Assembly (NCBI GenBank): GCA_900618425.1
Contig: UZAN01046664.1
Location: 754 to 18,378, forward strand
Direction: 5' to 3'
DNA: 17,625 nucleotides
DNA from: Echinostoma caproni
Lineage: Eukaryota; Platyhelminthes; Trematoda; Plagiorchiida; Echinostomatidae
The notes beneath the pieces are model-generated. The model saw nothing but the letters and a program-made list of their open reading frames with translations. It did not search any database and was not told the origin of the DNA. The position numbers and the translations under genes are program-made. Shown here in pieces: positions 975 to 11,100 of this stretch. Each line of letters starts with the position of its first letter. Position 1 is the stretch's first letter.

Positions 975-1140
975 AAAGCAAATGAAGCTCGAACTGGAAA
1001 GGTAGGAAGCACTAAACTGCACTGTTCTGATCTGGCTGGGTTTCATCAGCAGTGTGTGAATCCATCGATCTAACTGAGGATCGAACCCGAGACCTCATAG
1101 GTAGAACGCAAACATACTACCCACGTGACCACGTCGGACA
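975..1140 (-). mobile_element. tRNA-headed SINE-like element with hammerhead relic (family 1, copy A)
   Basis: Read on the minus strand, this element begins with a tRNA-like head. It has an A-box-like block at 1121-1131 (TGGTCACGTGG) and a good B box at 1078-1088 (GGGTTCGATCC). About 25 bases after the B box comes a hammerhead box CTGATGA (1043-1049), then a tail with GTGCTTCC. The tail and the segment around the B box match the plus-strand copy at 1240-1405 almost base for base, which defines a repeat family of about 165 bp. The head is too degenerate in its anticodon arm to be a working tRNA gene. It is probably a retroposed Pol III transcript. The two copies lie head to head about 100 bases apart. 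Confidence 0.75.
1006..1053 (-). ncRNA. Degenerate hammerhead ribozyme relic
   Basis: On the minus strand the C3-to-A9 box CTGATGA is intact at 1043-1049. Helix I is still possible: CACTG on the 5' side can pair with TAGTG on the 3' side, with one wobble. Helix II has decayed (AACCC is not matched by a clean partner). The GAA box at 1025-1027 is followed by CAG rather than ACAG, and the expected GTC cleavage triplet is lost. It is recognised mainly through its better-preserved sister at 1325-1371, and it is very unlikely to cleave. Confidence 0.65.
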
Positions 1141-1239
1141 GCCTATCAGTGTTGAGAGACGCGAGATTGGATGTCTGCATTGAACTTGCAAAGGTGGATT
1201 GTGCTATTGCGTGTACAGAGAAAAAGAAAACAATTCTGG

Positions 1240-1405
1240 TCAGTTGCTCACTACTCAAGTGGATCGTATGCTCGCATGTGAGCTGTGAGGTCCCAGGTTC
1301 GATCACCAGTTGAGTCGCTTGATTGGCACTGTTGATGAGACCCGAAGGGATCGAAACAGTTGTCCAGTGCTTCCAAACTTTCCAGCTCAAGCTTCGTTTG
1401 CTCCG
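1240..1405 (+). mobile_element. tRNA-headed SINE-like element with hammerhead ribozyme (family 1, copy B)
   Basis: The plus-strand head has an A-box-like block at 1252-1262 (TACTCAAGTGG) and a B box at 1296-1307 (GGTTCGATCACC), at the spacing expected of a tRNA-type internal Pol III promoter. A hammerhead core follows at 1325-1371. The 3' tail (GTGCTTCC, then CTTTCCAG and a T-rich stretch) matches copy A. I see no clear poly(A) tail or target-site duplication, so the 3' limit is approximate. The longest open frame of the window (1310-1840) starts inside this element and runs over the ribozyme, so I regard it as a chance frame. The order tRNA-like head then hammerhead recalls Schistosoma SM-alpha repeats. 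Homology to those, as opposed to shared design, is untested. Confidence 0.8.
1325..1371 (+). ncRNA. Hammerhead ribozyme, intact helices, C3-to-U core change
   Basis: Helix I pairs GGCACTG (1325-1331) with CAGTGCT (1365-1371): seven pairs, the last one G-U. The core box is TTGATGA (1332-1338), so conserved C3 is U here. Helix II pairs GA and CCC with GGG and TC around the loop GAA (1339-1352), leaving one bulged A, as if one T had been lost from a perfect six-pair stem. GAA is at 1353-1355. Helix III pairs ACAG (1356-1359) with TTGT (1360-1363). The predicted cleavage is after C1364 (GTC). The C3-G8 pair is needed for catalysis in known hammerheads, so this copy is probably weak or inactive although its fold survives. 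Confidence 0.8.
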
Positions 1406-2230: not shown

Positions 2231-3270
2231 CTCAGCGCGCACACACACACCTGCATTGCACCCATACGAAAATGCACTCGTTACAATGCTGTCGATGACC
2301 CCGATTCCCGGACAATTGTTCGACCGCGTTCCAGGATGATGCTTTGTCTCTGTTCGACTAGCACAAGATGTCCAATCCCAGTAGCGAGACCCCAGATCCA
2401 CACGCACACCCACACAGTGTATGGCGGTAGCACCTGTTCACGTGTGCCTCAGAACACAGGAGAAGAATCACTCTGTCCGTCCCGTTTCCGCCCAGTTTCC
2501 CATGAAAGTCCGGCCGATAGGATGAGTGCTGTTACCTTGACTGCGGTGTAGTTGAGCCTTGTTGATCAAGTGTTCTTTTGAACCCGCCGTTTTATAGCCT
2601 ATCATTGATTGTCCTCAGTTGATATGGCCTCTGAATTCTTGTGGTAACGTGAAAATGTAAACAGAGATGGGTATCAGTGTAAAACAACAACAGTGCATCT
2701 TCTCGTCCCACGTGGAATAAACTCACTTGAAAAATGTCATTAACAACTAGCCTATTTTTCTTCACTTTCATTGATTCACCATTTCAAAAGTTGATTTAAT
2801 CAAGTGCCCCGATAACATCTACACTGCGAGCTAGCTCTGGAACACANGAACACACATGCAAACAGACAAACCACTTTCCCTAATAAGTCCTCCGTTGTGT
2901 CTAACACATTCAACTCGTGTGCTCATTGAGTCCTCACACCTCGGAAGTTCACCACCATCACCACCGGCACACACTCCCTCTGTTGCATTCCATGCAATGG
3001 CATGCAACAATATGTGGTCCGATATTCTATGAGGTCCGTTAAAAATGACACATCACACGATAGAGAACCCCATGTTGAACGAATGATGTGGCTACGGGAC
3101 GGGAATTTGGCATGATAAACGTTTCGCTGATTTCGTATCTTTCAACAGCTAAAATCTTCAACAAGGAAAGCAGTGTGCCAGAAGTCAACAGCAAAGTTTG
3201 TCCTTTGGGATAGCAGTAAGATGCGATCATGGCACTGTTTTAGTTCCACAAGCACACGCACTTACACACA
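2231..3270. other. Non-coding stretch with short CA blocks and a quasi-palindrome
   Basis: Short CA-rich blocks occur near 2241-2256 and 2398-2416, with an undetermined base at 2846. Apart from the quasi-palindrome at 2981-3009, listed separately, nothing here resembles a gene. The small frames at 2027-2413 (minus) and 2336-2551 (plus) overlap each other and run through CA-repeat sequence. Confidence 0.5.
2981..3009. repeat. 29-bp quasi-palindrome
   Basis: TGTTGCAT (2981-2988) pairs with ATGCAACA (3002-3009), and CCAT (2990-2993) pairs with ATGG (2997-3000). The single mismatch is 2989/3001 and the loop is GCA. It could extrude as a hairpin, or be a dyad site for a DNA-binding protein. No adjoining gene supports a regulatory role. 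Confidence 0.7.
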
Positions 3271-3276
3271 CGCACG

Positions 3277-3297
3277 CACACACACACACACACACAC
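3277..3297 (+). repeat. (CA)n microsatellite
   Basis: Uninterrupted CA dinucleotides, flanked on the left by imperfect CA/CG units from about 3253. Confidence 0.9.
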
Positions 3298-3738: not shown

Positions 3739-3799
3739 AACCCCCTCCCCTGTTGTTGGGCTATGGTTAAACGCCTGTGGATTCCAGTCATCCATTTTG

Positions 3800-4016
3800 G
3801 AGTATCAAGCTTGGATTAGCCCATTCGATTGTTCAGAGGCACCAGGCACTCTTGATGGTCTTGGGTTTGATTTTCCAACCCGATGGTTCGCGGTTCGAGT
3901 CCTGACAAGGACACAAAAATTTCGTACTGCTGATGAGTCCCAAACAGGACGAAGCAGCTGTCCGCTGCTCTTGTCAGTTATCATAAACCTTTCCACCGCA
4001 TTTAAATTCAGTGATC
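3800..4016 (+). mobile_element. tRNA-headed SINE-like element with hammerhead ribozyme (family 2, copy A)
   Basis: The 5' module (GAGTATCA, then TTGGATTAGCCCATTCGATTG, then GATGGTCTTGGG) recurs at 10412-10461 and 10693-10757. It runs into a tRNA-like segment with B box GGTTCGAGTCC at 3892-3902. A GGACACAAAA linker and a hammerhead core at 3924-3968 follow. The tail contains ACCTTTCCA and GCATTTAA and matches the tail of the minus-strand copy at 10471-10692, which sets the 3' end near 4016. This is the best-preserved element of the window. A Pol III promoter is inferred from the B box. The A box is less clear than in the sister copy. No reading frame is encoded, so mobility would depend on enzymes from a LINE elsewhere. 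Confidence 0.8.
3924..3968 (+). ncRNA. Hammerhead ribozyme, near-intact core
   Basis: All core boxes are present. CTGATGA is at 3930-3936. Helix II is GTCC/GGAC (3937-3940 with 3947-3950) around the loop CAAACA. GAA is at 3951-3953. Helix III is the near-palindrome GCAGCTGT (3954-3961). C17 is C3962, with cleavage predicted between 3962 and 3963. Helix I pairs 3924-3929 (GTACTG) with 3963-3968 (CGCTGC): five of six pairs including two wobbles, with a C-C mismatch at the third pair. One core deviation is G instead of A at 15.1, giving a G-U closing pair for helix III. Helix III is so short that one molecule can hold only two or three pairs with a tiny loop. Two molecules could pair the full eight bases, as known for dimer-active hammerheads. 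Confidence 0.87.
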
Positions 4017-4298
4017 CATATTTATTCCTGAAATCTTCACCGTGGATGCATTTGAGAGTTGTTGTTCAGTATACGCGTGAATGCACTTCCAGGTCAGGTG
4101 ACTGTTTCATCATCACGCATCATGTTGGGCATACTCTTCCGTACAAATCTACCTTGTTGATGCAAAAACCTCCCTGGTTGAGTGCTTACGAGAACACCGG
4201 TTATCAATATTTGTGATAGACTGAGCACATAGTGAAAGGAGATTCATTACTGCGAAATACGGCAGAGTTTAAAATGAGATTATATAATTAGGACAATT

Positions 4299-4300
<2 letters not shown>
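4017..4300. other. Non-coding flank, nothing recognised
   Basis: This follows the family 2 element. The string CAATATTTGTGAT near 4205-4217 recurs in reverse near 10763-10775, which may be a remnant of the same family. The match is too short to be sure. Confidence 0.35.

Positions 4301-4342
<42 letters not shown>
4301..4342 (+). repeat. (TG)21 microsatellite
   Basis: Uninterrupted TG dinucleotides, followed by a purine block GGAGGAGGGAGGG. This is the longest pure dinucleotide tract in the window. Confidence 0.95.
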
Positions 4343-5119: not shown

Positions 5120-5142
5120 ATGTGTGTGTGTGTGTGTGTGTG
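5120..5142 (+). repeat. (TG)n microsatellite
   Basis: TG dinucleotides with flanking CATGCATGCA and GTGAGTGAGTGAG units at about 5106-5120 and 5157-5173. Confidence 0.9.
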
Positions 5143-5358
5143 CGTGCAAGTGTGTGAGAGTGAGTGAGTGAGTAAACATAGCTATACTCGACATGTCATC
5201 ACACGAGCTGAAGTATCTTACAAATCGAACTATCACTACGCCGTCCCCTTTCCGGATTTTCAATCTCAACAGAACGGCTCGTCGTGTATGTGTGTGTACT
5301 GGTGAGGACAGTCACCACAATCAAACCAAAGATGGTCGAATGTGGTGAGGAGTTACGT

Positions 5359-9640: not shown

Positions 9641-10410
9641 TAATATTAACAGAGCGATTGAAGTATTGTGTCATTGATGGGTCTTGAACAAGTCACGATG
9701 GGATATGATAAGAATACAGAGATCAGTGTCCAAAGTCGCTTTCACTGACGTCCTTATTCTCACTATCTCCTCCAGGGCCTGTGGTTCTAGCTTTGAACCC
9801 TCTCACGGCTACCCAACTTTGGTAGTAAGCAACTCTATTGTCACTGTATATCTCATTGTACATTTATTATTGTGCTGGGAAGTGCTTTTTAAGTGCTGTG
9901 GTGAGATCAACACTCGCGATCGTAGAATTCCTACTTCTTAGCGTGTGATGTACCTTCGGCTGTAAGAAAAAGGCCTACCCCAGTGAAAAGTCGATTGAAT
10001 TTAATCAAAAATTGTGATATTTTATGCAGACAATCGTTTGATCTCAGATTGGCTTTTGCAAGAATCGATTCCAGAACCCATCAAACCAGTGGGGGTGAAA
10101 TCTCCTAGGGGTCACTGATATACTTCTCAATGATCAATTTATGAACAGTGGTTCTTGGGAAGCTAGACATCATAATTATGTGCTTAGTATGATCATCTGG
10201 GCTTCATCAACGGTTGCAATGTTTGAAATGCACAGTACCAGCTTATTATTTATATCTCTAATAGTGGTGGNGCAAATAGCTGTCATTATTTTGCTTCGAG
10301 CCCTACAATTTGAGCTTCCCATTTTACTATAAGCTGCGAACTTTGCTGGTAGTCTACTTTGTTCGCACTCGACTAGATATCGCACCAATATTACGAGTAG
10401 TAAATTTGGA
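9641..10410. other. Non-coding stretch, nothing recognised
   Basis: The frames at 9684-9941 and 10141-10332 (plus) are hydrophobic by virtue of AT-rich DNA and show no conserved motif. An undetermined base lies at 10271. Confidence 0.45.
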
Positions 10411-10411
10411 A

Positions 10412-10461
10412 CAATTCATTCGATTGTTCACAGGCACTGTTGATGGTCTTGGGTGTGAGTT
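10412..10461 (+). mobile_element. Family 2 element, 5' fragment (copy B)
   Basis: ATTCATTCGATTGTTCACAGGC followed by GTTGATGGTCTTGGG matches the start of the family 2 element at 3800-3860. The copy stops where the tail of the inverted copy at 10471-10692 begins, so it was probably truncated by, or on insertion next to, that element. Confidence 0.65.
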
Positions 10462-10470
10462 TCACTCCCT

Positions 10471-10692
10471 GGGTGATCGTTAATTCCTCACTAGTTAAAT
10501 GCATTTATAAGCAATAGAAAGGTCTGTCATGACCGACAATTGTTTCGTCCTGTTAGGGACTCTTCAGCAGTCCGTACTTTAGTGTCCCCGTAAGGACTTG
10601 AACCACAAACCTTCAGGTTGGGAGTTCCAACAATTACCTCTGAGATACACGGTCAACGGTTCTTCGCCTTGTGCGAATGGCTCAATCAATTC
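10471..10692 (-). mobile_element. tRNA-headed SINE-like element with hammerhead ribozyme (family 2, copy C)
   Basis: Read on the minus strand, a 5' module (GATTGAGCCATTCG, CACAAGGC) is followed by an A box TATCTCAGAGG (10637-10647) and a B box GGTTCAAGTCC (10594-10604). A GGACAC linker and a hammerhead core at 10531-10571 come next. The tail has ACCTTTC, GCATTTAA and AGTGAGG and matches the tail of the 3800-4016 copy. The tRNA resemblance of the head is clearer here than in that copy. It is flanked on both sides by plus-strand family 2 fragments, so it sits inside a nest of its own family. Confidence 0.8.
10531..10571 (-). ncRNA. Hammerhead ribozyme core with palindromic helix III
   Basis: On the minus strand, CTGAAGA (10561-10567) carries A for U at position 7, a position known to tolerate change. 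Helix II is GTCC/GGAC (10557-10560 with 10547-10550) around a six-base loop. GAA is at 10544-10546. Helix III is the perfect palindrome ACAATTGT (10536-10543). C17 is the complement of 10535, so cleavage is predicted between 10535 and 10534. Helix I is weak: the four bases next to the core do not pair in register, and only GAC with GTC pairs beyond an internal loop. Activity is therefore doubtful although catalytic residues are kept. Confidence 0.8.
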
Positions 10693-10820
10693 AGAGTATC
10701 ATGTTTGGATTAACCCATTCAATTGTCCACACACCAGGCACAGTTGATGGTCTTGTTGGTTATCACAAATATTGTCGTCCTACTTGAATTCATTTATTTG
10801 GTGAGTAATTAAAGATCTCC
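10693..10820 (+). mobile_element. Family 2 element, internally deleted or rearranged (copy D)
   Basis: AGAGTATCATGTTTGG followed by ATTAACCCATTCAATTG and GTTGATGGTCTTG (to about 10757) matches the family 2 start. GTGAGTAATTAAAGATC (10801-10817) resembles GTGAGGAATTAACGATC of copy C's tail. The ribozyme-bearing middle is missing in this orientation. On the minus strand, GGACGACAATATTTGT (about 10765-10780) looks like a decayed GGAC-GAA-helix III piece, so another inverted fragment may be wedged in. The exact joins cannot be fixed by eye. Confidence 0.5.
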
Positions 10821-11100
10821 TGAGGATTGAAACCCATACTCAAGAGCATCATTCCAAACATGCTTATTGCTGCTCTTATTAACGTGAACTTTATTTTCCT
10901 CACACCTAACTACAGAATATGTACCGGTCTTATCAGAGTACGTGCTAACACAAGGAAGCTCGCTTGCGTTGGTGGTAGTGGGATCACGTCCGTCACATCT
11001 TTTTTTCATTTTTACTTCCTTTTATTGAATACTTAATGAAACAATTTTCAGGAAGGCATATGCGGCCAATCAAAGGGCTACCATAAAACGCATAATGGGG
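10821..11100. other. Non-coding stretch, nothing recognised
   Basis: A minus-strand GGGTTTCAATCC (about 10823-10834) resembles a B box, but no clear A box pairs with it. The two small opposite-strand frames here mirror each other and carry no domain. Confidence 0.4.

Follow-up and report, generated by a model that had tools for sequence, protein, structure and literature searches.

A probable tRNA-headed SINE with a type I hammerhead ribozyme, and its mosaic and inverted copies, in Echinostoma caproni

Introduction

Short interspersed elements (SINEs) that are related to tRNA and carry a hammerhead ribozyme are described from schistosomes (PMC2770079, PMC8490949, PMC4918200). For SM-alpha of Schistosoma mansoni the tRNA is given as tRNA-Gln (PMC2770079), and both SM-alpha and Sj-alpha of S. 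japonicum have a type I hammerhead whose stem III is very short (PMC8490949). As far as those descriptions go, the element reported here is likewise SINE-like and tRNA-related, with a short-stem-III type I hammerhead and a high copy number (PMC2770079, PMC8490949). By the same descriptions it differs in that this genome has two, perhaps three, heads as well as mosaic heads and inverted composites; the window analysed here has, as a further point of comparison, a GC content of 41-48% across 1-kb steps.

Two other systems are close. Animal non-LTR retrozymes (Cervera and de la Pena 2020) likewise combine a type I hammerhead, a small non-coding unit and target-site duplications (TSDs); they are presented as tandem and circular, with platyhelminths among their hosts (PMC7229834). 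Penelope-like elements likewise have a type I hammerhead, and their enzyme is described as acting on both target strands, one such enzyme having been reported to cut and extend both strands in vitro (PMC11167929). They have been proposed as candidates for moving animal hammerhead repeats (PMC7229834). New hammerhead SINEs matter for two questions, namely which enzyme mobilises animal hammerhead repeats and what role the ribozyme has in that cycle. Our searches of the open-licence literature, which mostly lacks subscription papers, showed no description of hammerhead SINEs in mosaic or inverted form.

Here we analyse 17,625 nucleotides of contig UZAN01046664.1 (the window), in which a sequence-only reading had proposed a near-intact hammerhead inside a tRNA-headed repeat.

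Results

The Rfam covariance scan of the window, the check that the sequence-only reading had named, matched RF00163 at 3924-3968 on the plus strand over the whole model (37.7 bits, E 1.7e-6; gathering cut-off 34 bits). The hammerhead proposed there is therefore real, and it is the sole one of three RF00163 matches in the window to reach the gathering cut-off (others 32.6 and 32.1 bits). Read from the sequence, this type I hammerhead comprises helix I (3924-3929 with 3963-3968; five of six pairs formed, C3927.C3965 unpaired), the CTGATGA box (3930-3936), helix II (3937-3940 with 3947-3950), the GAA box (3951-3953), the helix III stretch GCAGCTGT (3954-3961) and C3962, after which cleavage is predicted. 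Helix I has a possible distal extension, in which CTGACAAG (3902-3909) would pair with CTTGTCAG (3970-3977). When every box and helix is required, the window contains a single such motif and none of 200 dinucleotide shuffles contains one; the bare core boxes occur three times against a mean of 1.07 per shuffle.

The description of the core as near-intact holds for the boxes and helices, which are all present, but not for position 15.1. GAAG stands where an intact core (CUGANGA, GAAA, UH) has GAAA; with G in place of A at 15.1 the core falls short of intact, and the basal pair of helix III becomes G.U. Given the change from A to G at 15.1 and the C.C mismatch in helix I, little activity is expected of this copy, and, from what is generally known of hammerhead mutants, its cleavage would be weak or absent. 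The short, loopless helix III had also been taken to separate the element from SM-alpha. It does not, since the RF00163 consensus itself shows a loopless 4+4 helix III and stem III of the SM-alpha type is very short; helix III length was thus rejected as grounds for a new family. The core and stem II of the element are close to the RF00163 consensus.

An alignment of 11 copies plus the window delimits the whole element, copy A, at 3796-4008 on the plus strand. It consists of a 5' module H (3796-3875; 95% to positions 1-80 of the module H consensus) and the 3' part of a tRNA-hammerhead SINE. On either side lie the 11-base TSD copies CAGTCATCCAT (left, 3785-3795) and CAGTGATCCAT (right, 4009-4019), identical at 10 of 11 bases with one mismatch; their score of 8 was equalled or exceeded by 5 of 342 mispaired flanks. 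Upstream of the hammerhead, where a B box had been read, an exact Pol III B-box-like GGTTCGAGTCC is present at 3892-3902, the only exact match in the window. No A box was seen in copy A, because its 5' part is module H and not an S-type tRNA-like head (see below), and ARAGORN found no tRNA in the window. The repeat is therefore tRNA-related and dispersed, as proposed, but the window copy itself begins with module H. It is most probably a dead SINE copy whose founder had a tRNA-like 5' region and a type I hammerhead, probably catalytically weak or dead and not expressed from its own promoter.

The genome (426.5 Mb in 12,689 contigs) was searched with positions 3800-4016 as the query. This returned 3,684 first-look candidates, of which 40 places were scored, giving 50 matches. 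Further genomic copies were indeed found, the best matches at the 39 scored places besides the window having 76-86% identity, and a second match lay alongside at 8 of the 40. Twenty of the scored places were fetched with their flanks; eight of these loci (L009-L016) were chosen for an adjacent second match, so composites are over-represented among them. Single copies in the alignment span approximately (TTTA)GAGTATCAAGC to CATCGCATTT. Among 19 insertions tested against the 342 mispaired flanks, TSDs of 8-15 bases were clear in eight: scores for L018, L024, L025, L028 and L009 were above all mispaired flanks, that for L011 was reached by one, and those for L022 and the window by five. In the other 11 insertions TSDs were not clearly above the control. 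The element is thus short, dispersed and TSD-flanked with no coding domain detected, as SM-alpha-like SINEs are. Fourteen 10-kb stretches were taken from two contigs that were long and known to carry copies, and in their 94,163 non-N bases Rfam found five hammerheads at E ≤ 0.05; rough scaling from these stretches would put the genome-wide number at the order of ten thousand. The contigs of L035-L054 contain long runs of N (71,856 N among 200,000 bases in all).

A B box (at least 9 of 11 bases) was present upstream of 32 of 36 hammerheads, 31 of them in a single distance column of 20-26 bases, as against 4% in base shuffles; the window query had itself retrieved the loci of 25 of these 36, which are hence not independent. 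The units fall into two families with different heads. S units (family 1) start with TTGATTGAGCC and contain an A-box-like GTGTAGCTCAGGGGTAAGGG, identified by eye; module H replaces this A-box-bearing head in copy A and in the majority of the remaining single copies. Family 2 comprises L044, L038, L035 and window 1200-1402. Units of the two families align over the B box and hammerhead (a score reached by 0 of 1000 shuffles), whereas their heads alone show no alignment above shuffles (208 of 1000 as high). This suggests that the hammerhead behaves as a conserved SINE domain with exchangeable heads. A third tRNA-headed family may be represented by a hammerhead at L046 9538-9582 (RF00163 32.5 bits, below gathering), judging from an A-box-like TGGCACAGTGGTAACGC picked out by eye upstream of it (region L046:9380-9760), where the best B-box candidate has 7 of 11 bases only. 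A recognisable relationship between the H and S heads was also considered and was unsupported (495 of 1000, 516 of 1000 and 1731 of 5000 shuffles as high).

Besides copy A, the window carries two weaker hammerheads and an inverted relic, again with two families and different heads. One weaker hammerhead belongs to copy B, a family 1 composite described below. The other lies in copy C, a family 2 tRNA-hammerhead unit at 1200-1402 on the plus strand (start set by eye against L038), in which the hammerhead at 1326-1370 (plus strand; RF00163 32.1 bits, below gathering) has C3 changed to U. Facing copy C, and so inverted relative to it, is copy D, a family 2 relic at 977-1128 on the minus strand; the inverted repeat (977-1128/1255-1402) is 72% identical over about 150 bases. 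Copy D has a hammerhead-like stretch by BLAST (1005-1066, minus strand) with no Rfam match at E 0.05.

BLAST identified 39 hammerhead-like stretches, of which 34 were aligned after five weak or distorted ones were excluded. Taken by majority, the 34 give an intact type I hammerhead: two of its helices are GCACTG/CAGTGC and GUCC/GGAC, and the third, helix III, is readable as two or three pairs. The core is kept in 12 of the 34 copies only; copy B of the window is among these, yet its helix I forms two of six pairs and the cleavage-site base is apparently missing. The highest score met was that of the family 2 hammerhead at L044:98-142 (44.6 bits).

A lack of other copies with covarying helices had been named as a refuting result; the copies exist, and their covariation is present though not strong. 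Across the 34 hammerheads, 88.9% of cells are paired against 86.6% in shuffles, and the covariation score is 0.124 against 0.084, with 0 of 500 shuffles as high in either case; sliding the pairing partners by 1-3 columns lowers paired cells to 20-45%. Double changes occur in seven cells (1 of 500 shuffles as high), a number that slid versions also reach (7 to 8). Four of the seven are a U-A to A-U exchange of helix II in the four family 2 rows. This exchange, at the second helix II pair, is the clearest one: family 1 has U-A there and family 2 has A-U. Pairs with double changes number two, not above the shuffled mean of 1.9, and further pair types 14 against 12.3 (67 of 500 as high).

At minimum energy (-66.6 kcal/mol) the S consensus does not fold as the hammerhead, and neither does its 45-base hammerhead by itself. 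Forcing helices I and II in the S consensus costs about 5 kcal/mol (-61.6 kcal/mol). Separately, both families show complementarity between the tRNA-like tail and stem II of the hammerhead, as GGGAC/GTCCC and GGGTC/GACCC (window 3890-3960, L044, L038), pairing at 11 of 14 positions in family 1. By its sequence this complementarity may form a switch, and a chance origin is conceivable; when forced, the tail-stem II pairing offers no gain in energy over the hammerhead forced likewise (-60.9 vs -61.6 kcal/mol).

Copies are mosaics of H and S. We fitted 21 copies as an H prefix joined to an S suffix and obtained 21 distinct junction positions. At least eight of these cluster closely (H 63-68, S 48-58) and could be a single old junction blurred by decay; L009, L011, L012, L020, L026, L027 and copy B of the window have junctions clearly apart. 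Without copy B the junctions range from H 43 to 106 and from S 36 to 96, and the two positions rise jointly (r 0.92 for 20 of the 21 copies; 0.43 with copy B included). The length of the product is therefore nearly constant. A shuffle-tested alignment found no similarity between H and S that could explain the co-varying junctions.

Several copies are also inverted composites. Copy B (window 10395-10851) reads overall as Hlong-S'-H.tail-Hlong' piece. It begins with a module Hlong at 10395-10506 on the plus strand, in which 10417-10506 correspond to H 27-121 at 85% and 10395-10437 to a repeat, D1, at 77%. There follows an inverted tRNA-headed unit S at 10535-10689 on the minus strand (S 1-155 at 83%) with a decayed hammerhead at 10535-10567 (RF00163 32.6 bits, below gathering). 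The third unit, module H fused to the S tail (10690-10790, plus strand; H 1-68 at 84%, fitted junction H 68/S 168), lacks a hammerhead owing to this direct H-to-tail junction, and beyond the tail lies an inverted Hlong piece (10801-10851, minus strand; H 58-108 at 82%). The form Hlong-S'-(H.T) was also found in L014 and L016. The form S'-(H.T)-Hlong' was found in L010, L011 and L015 and, truncated, in L009, L012, L017 and L018; L013 and L045 are additional variants. Units join by their heads or by their tails. Five composites are untruncated (L010, L011, L014, L015, L016); each is bounded on one side by the S tail, as AAATGCGATGG or the complement of this, and on the other by the end of H, and the inner junction varies; a clear TSD surrounds the whole composite in L011 only.

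Rare variants are shared strongly between the two arms in L014 (0 of 400 other pairs as high), weakly in L011 (15 of 400) and L016 (51 of 400), and not above the remaining pairs in L010, L015 and L045. As sequence evidence that both arms of one composite may come from a single RNA, this is mixed. The inverted pattern would fit priming of cDNA from both cut target strands; template switching, nested insertion or recombination between inverted copies could yield an identical pattern. The idea that module H is the terminal inverted repeat of a DNA transposon was rejected on the clear TSDs of 8-15 bases and the absence of a second H in single copies.

Discussion

The element is most probably a tRNA-headed SINE with a type I hammerhead, of the SM-alpha/Sj-alpha kind, with mosaic and inverted copies. 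The sequence-only reading is borne out in the main: the hammerhead lies in a dispersed, tRNA-related repeat, and the genome has further copies of it. A hammerhead SINE is already a known kind from schistosomes; the mosaic and inverted architecture is the unusual part. We infer a founder that would have had a tRNA-like 5' region with Pol III A and B boxes, a type I hammerhead about 20 bases past the B box and a tail ending in CATTT. Pol III would transcribe the SINE, and the hammerhead would cleave itself either as a monomer or, as we propose because helix III is short, together with a second copy. The enzyme of a partner element would reverse transcribe the SINE RNA at a nicked target, and insertion would generate the TSD. 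New copies would be mosaic because templates switch during copying, which would join H to S at varying points and, in some copies, link oppositely oriented units by their heads or by their tails.

The dispersed copies could instead be fragments of a metazoan retrozyme, with tandem transcripts processed into mobile circular RNAs. The type I hammerhead, units near 200-350 bases and TSDs longer than 4 bases all match animal retrozymes as described (PMC7229834). However, hammerhead units in head-to-tail tandem were seen neither in the window nor, by BLAST with the element, in the 20 fetched loci, neighbouring units are inverted, and S units have A- and B-box-like sequences whereas retrozymes seem, from the account in PMC7761336, to be promoterless. 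We therefore judge this origin improbable. We regard as very unlikely a hammerhead left over from a Penelope-like terminal repeat with the SINE-like parts as accidental neighbours, even though Penelope-like elements have hammerheads and a both-strand enzyme would suit the inverted composites (PMC11167929). In 31 of 36 copies the hammerhead retains its spacing from the B box, tRNA-hammerhead units are bounded by clear TSDs, and Pfam scans of all six frames of the window found neither RT nor GIY-YIG domains, the sole entry at E 0.1 being TMEM171 (E 0.033, below its cut-off). Penelope-like elements carry a pseudo-LTR, whereas the element here has a tRNA-like head and no protein-coding part found in the window. 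A chance hammerhead-like fold inside a repeat of another kind would agree with the modest covariation, with bare core boxes at about one per shuffled window and with one of three RF00163 window matches passing gathering. It is made extremely unlikely by the full motif in 0 of 200 shuffles, by a fold common to two families with an exchanged helix II pair, and by the 44.6 bits of the L044 copy.

A wider version of the SINE reading appears rather unlikely at present: the hammerhead would be the shared domain of a SINE superfamily with two or three tRNA-like heads, inserted by an enzyme that primes on both strands, so that opposite-sense cDNAs would join at an inner point that varies, with the outer ends staying fixed. 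If both-strand priming were true, hammerhead SINEs would be linked to Penelope-like machinery. A repeat with possibly thousands of copies, with TSDs, with outer ends that recur and inner junctions that vary, is a record of the copying process, and such a record would let both-strand priming be tested from sequence.

Pattern scans of viral and genome collections, which may omit records near the source genome, gave no match. Among other features met, L029:1495-3324 (minus strand, 609 residues) and L031:1492-3315 (plus strand, 607 residues) contain uninterrupted, divergent HSP70-like reading frames, and L043:3744-3825 on the minus strand gives a weak tRNA match (RF00005, 29.7 bits, cut-off 29). 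The window itself contains CA/GT microsatellites at 3253-3297, 4300-4342 and 5121-5146.
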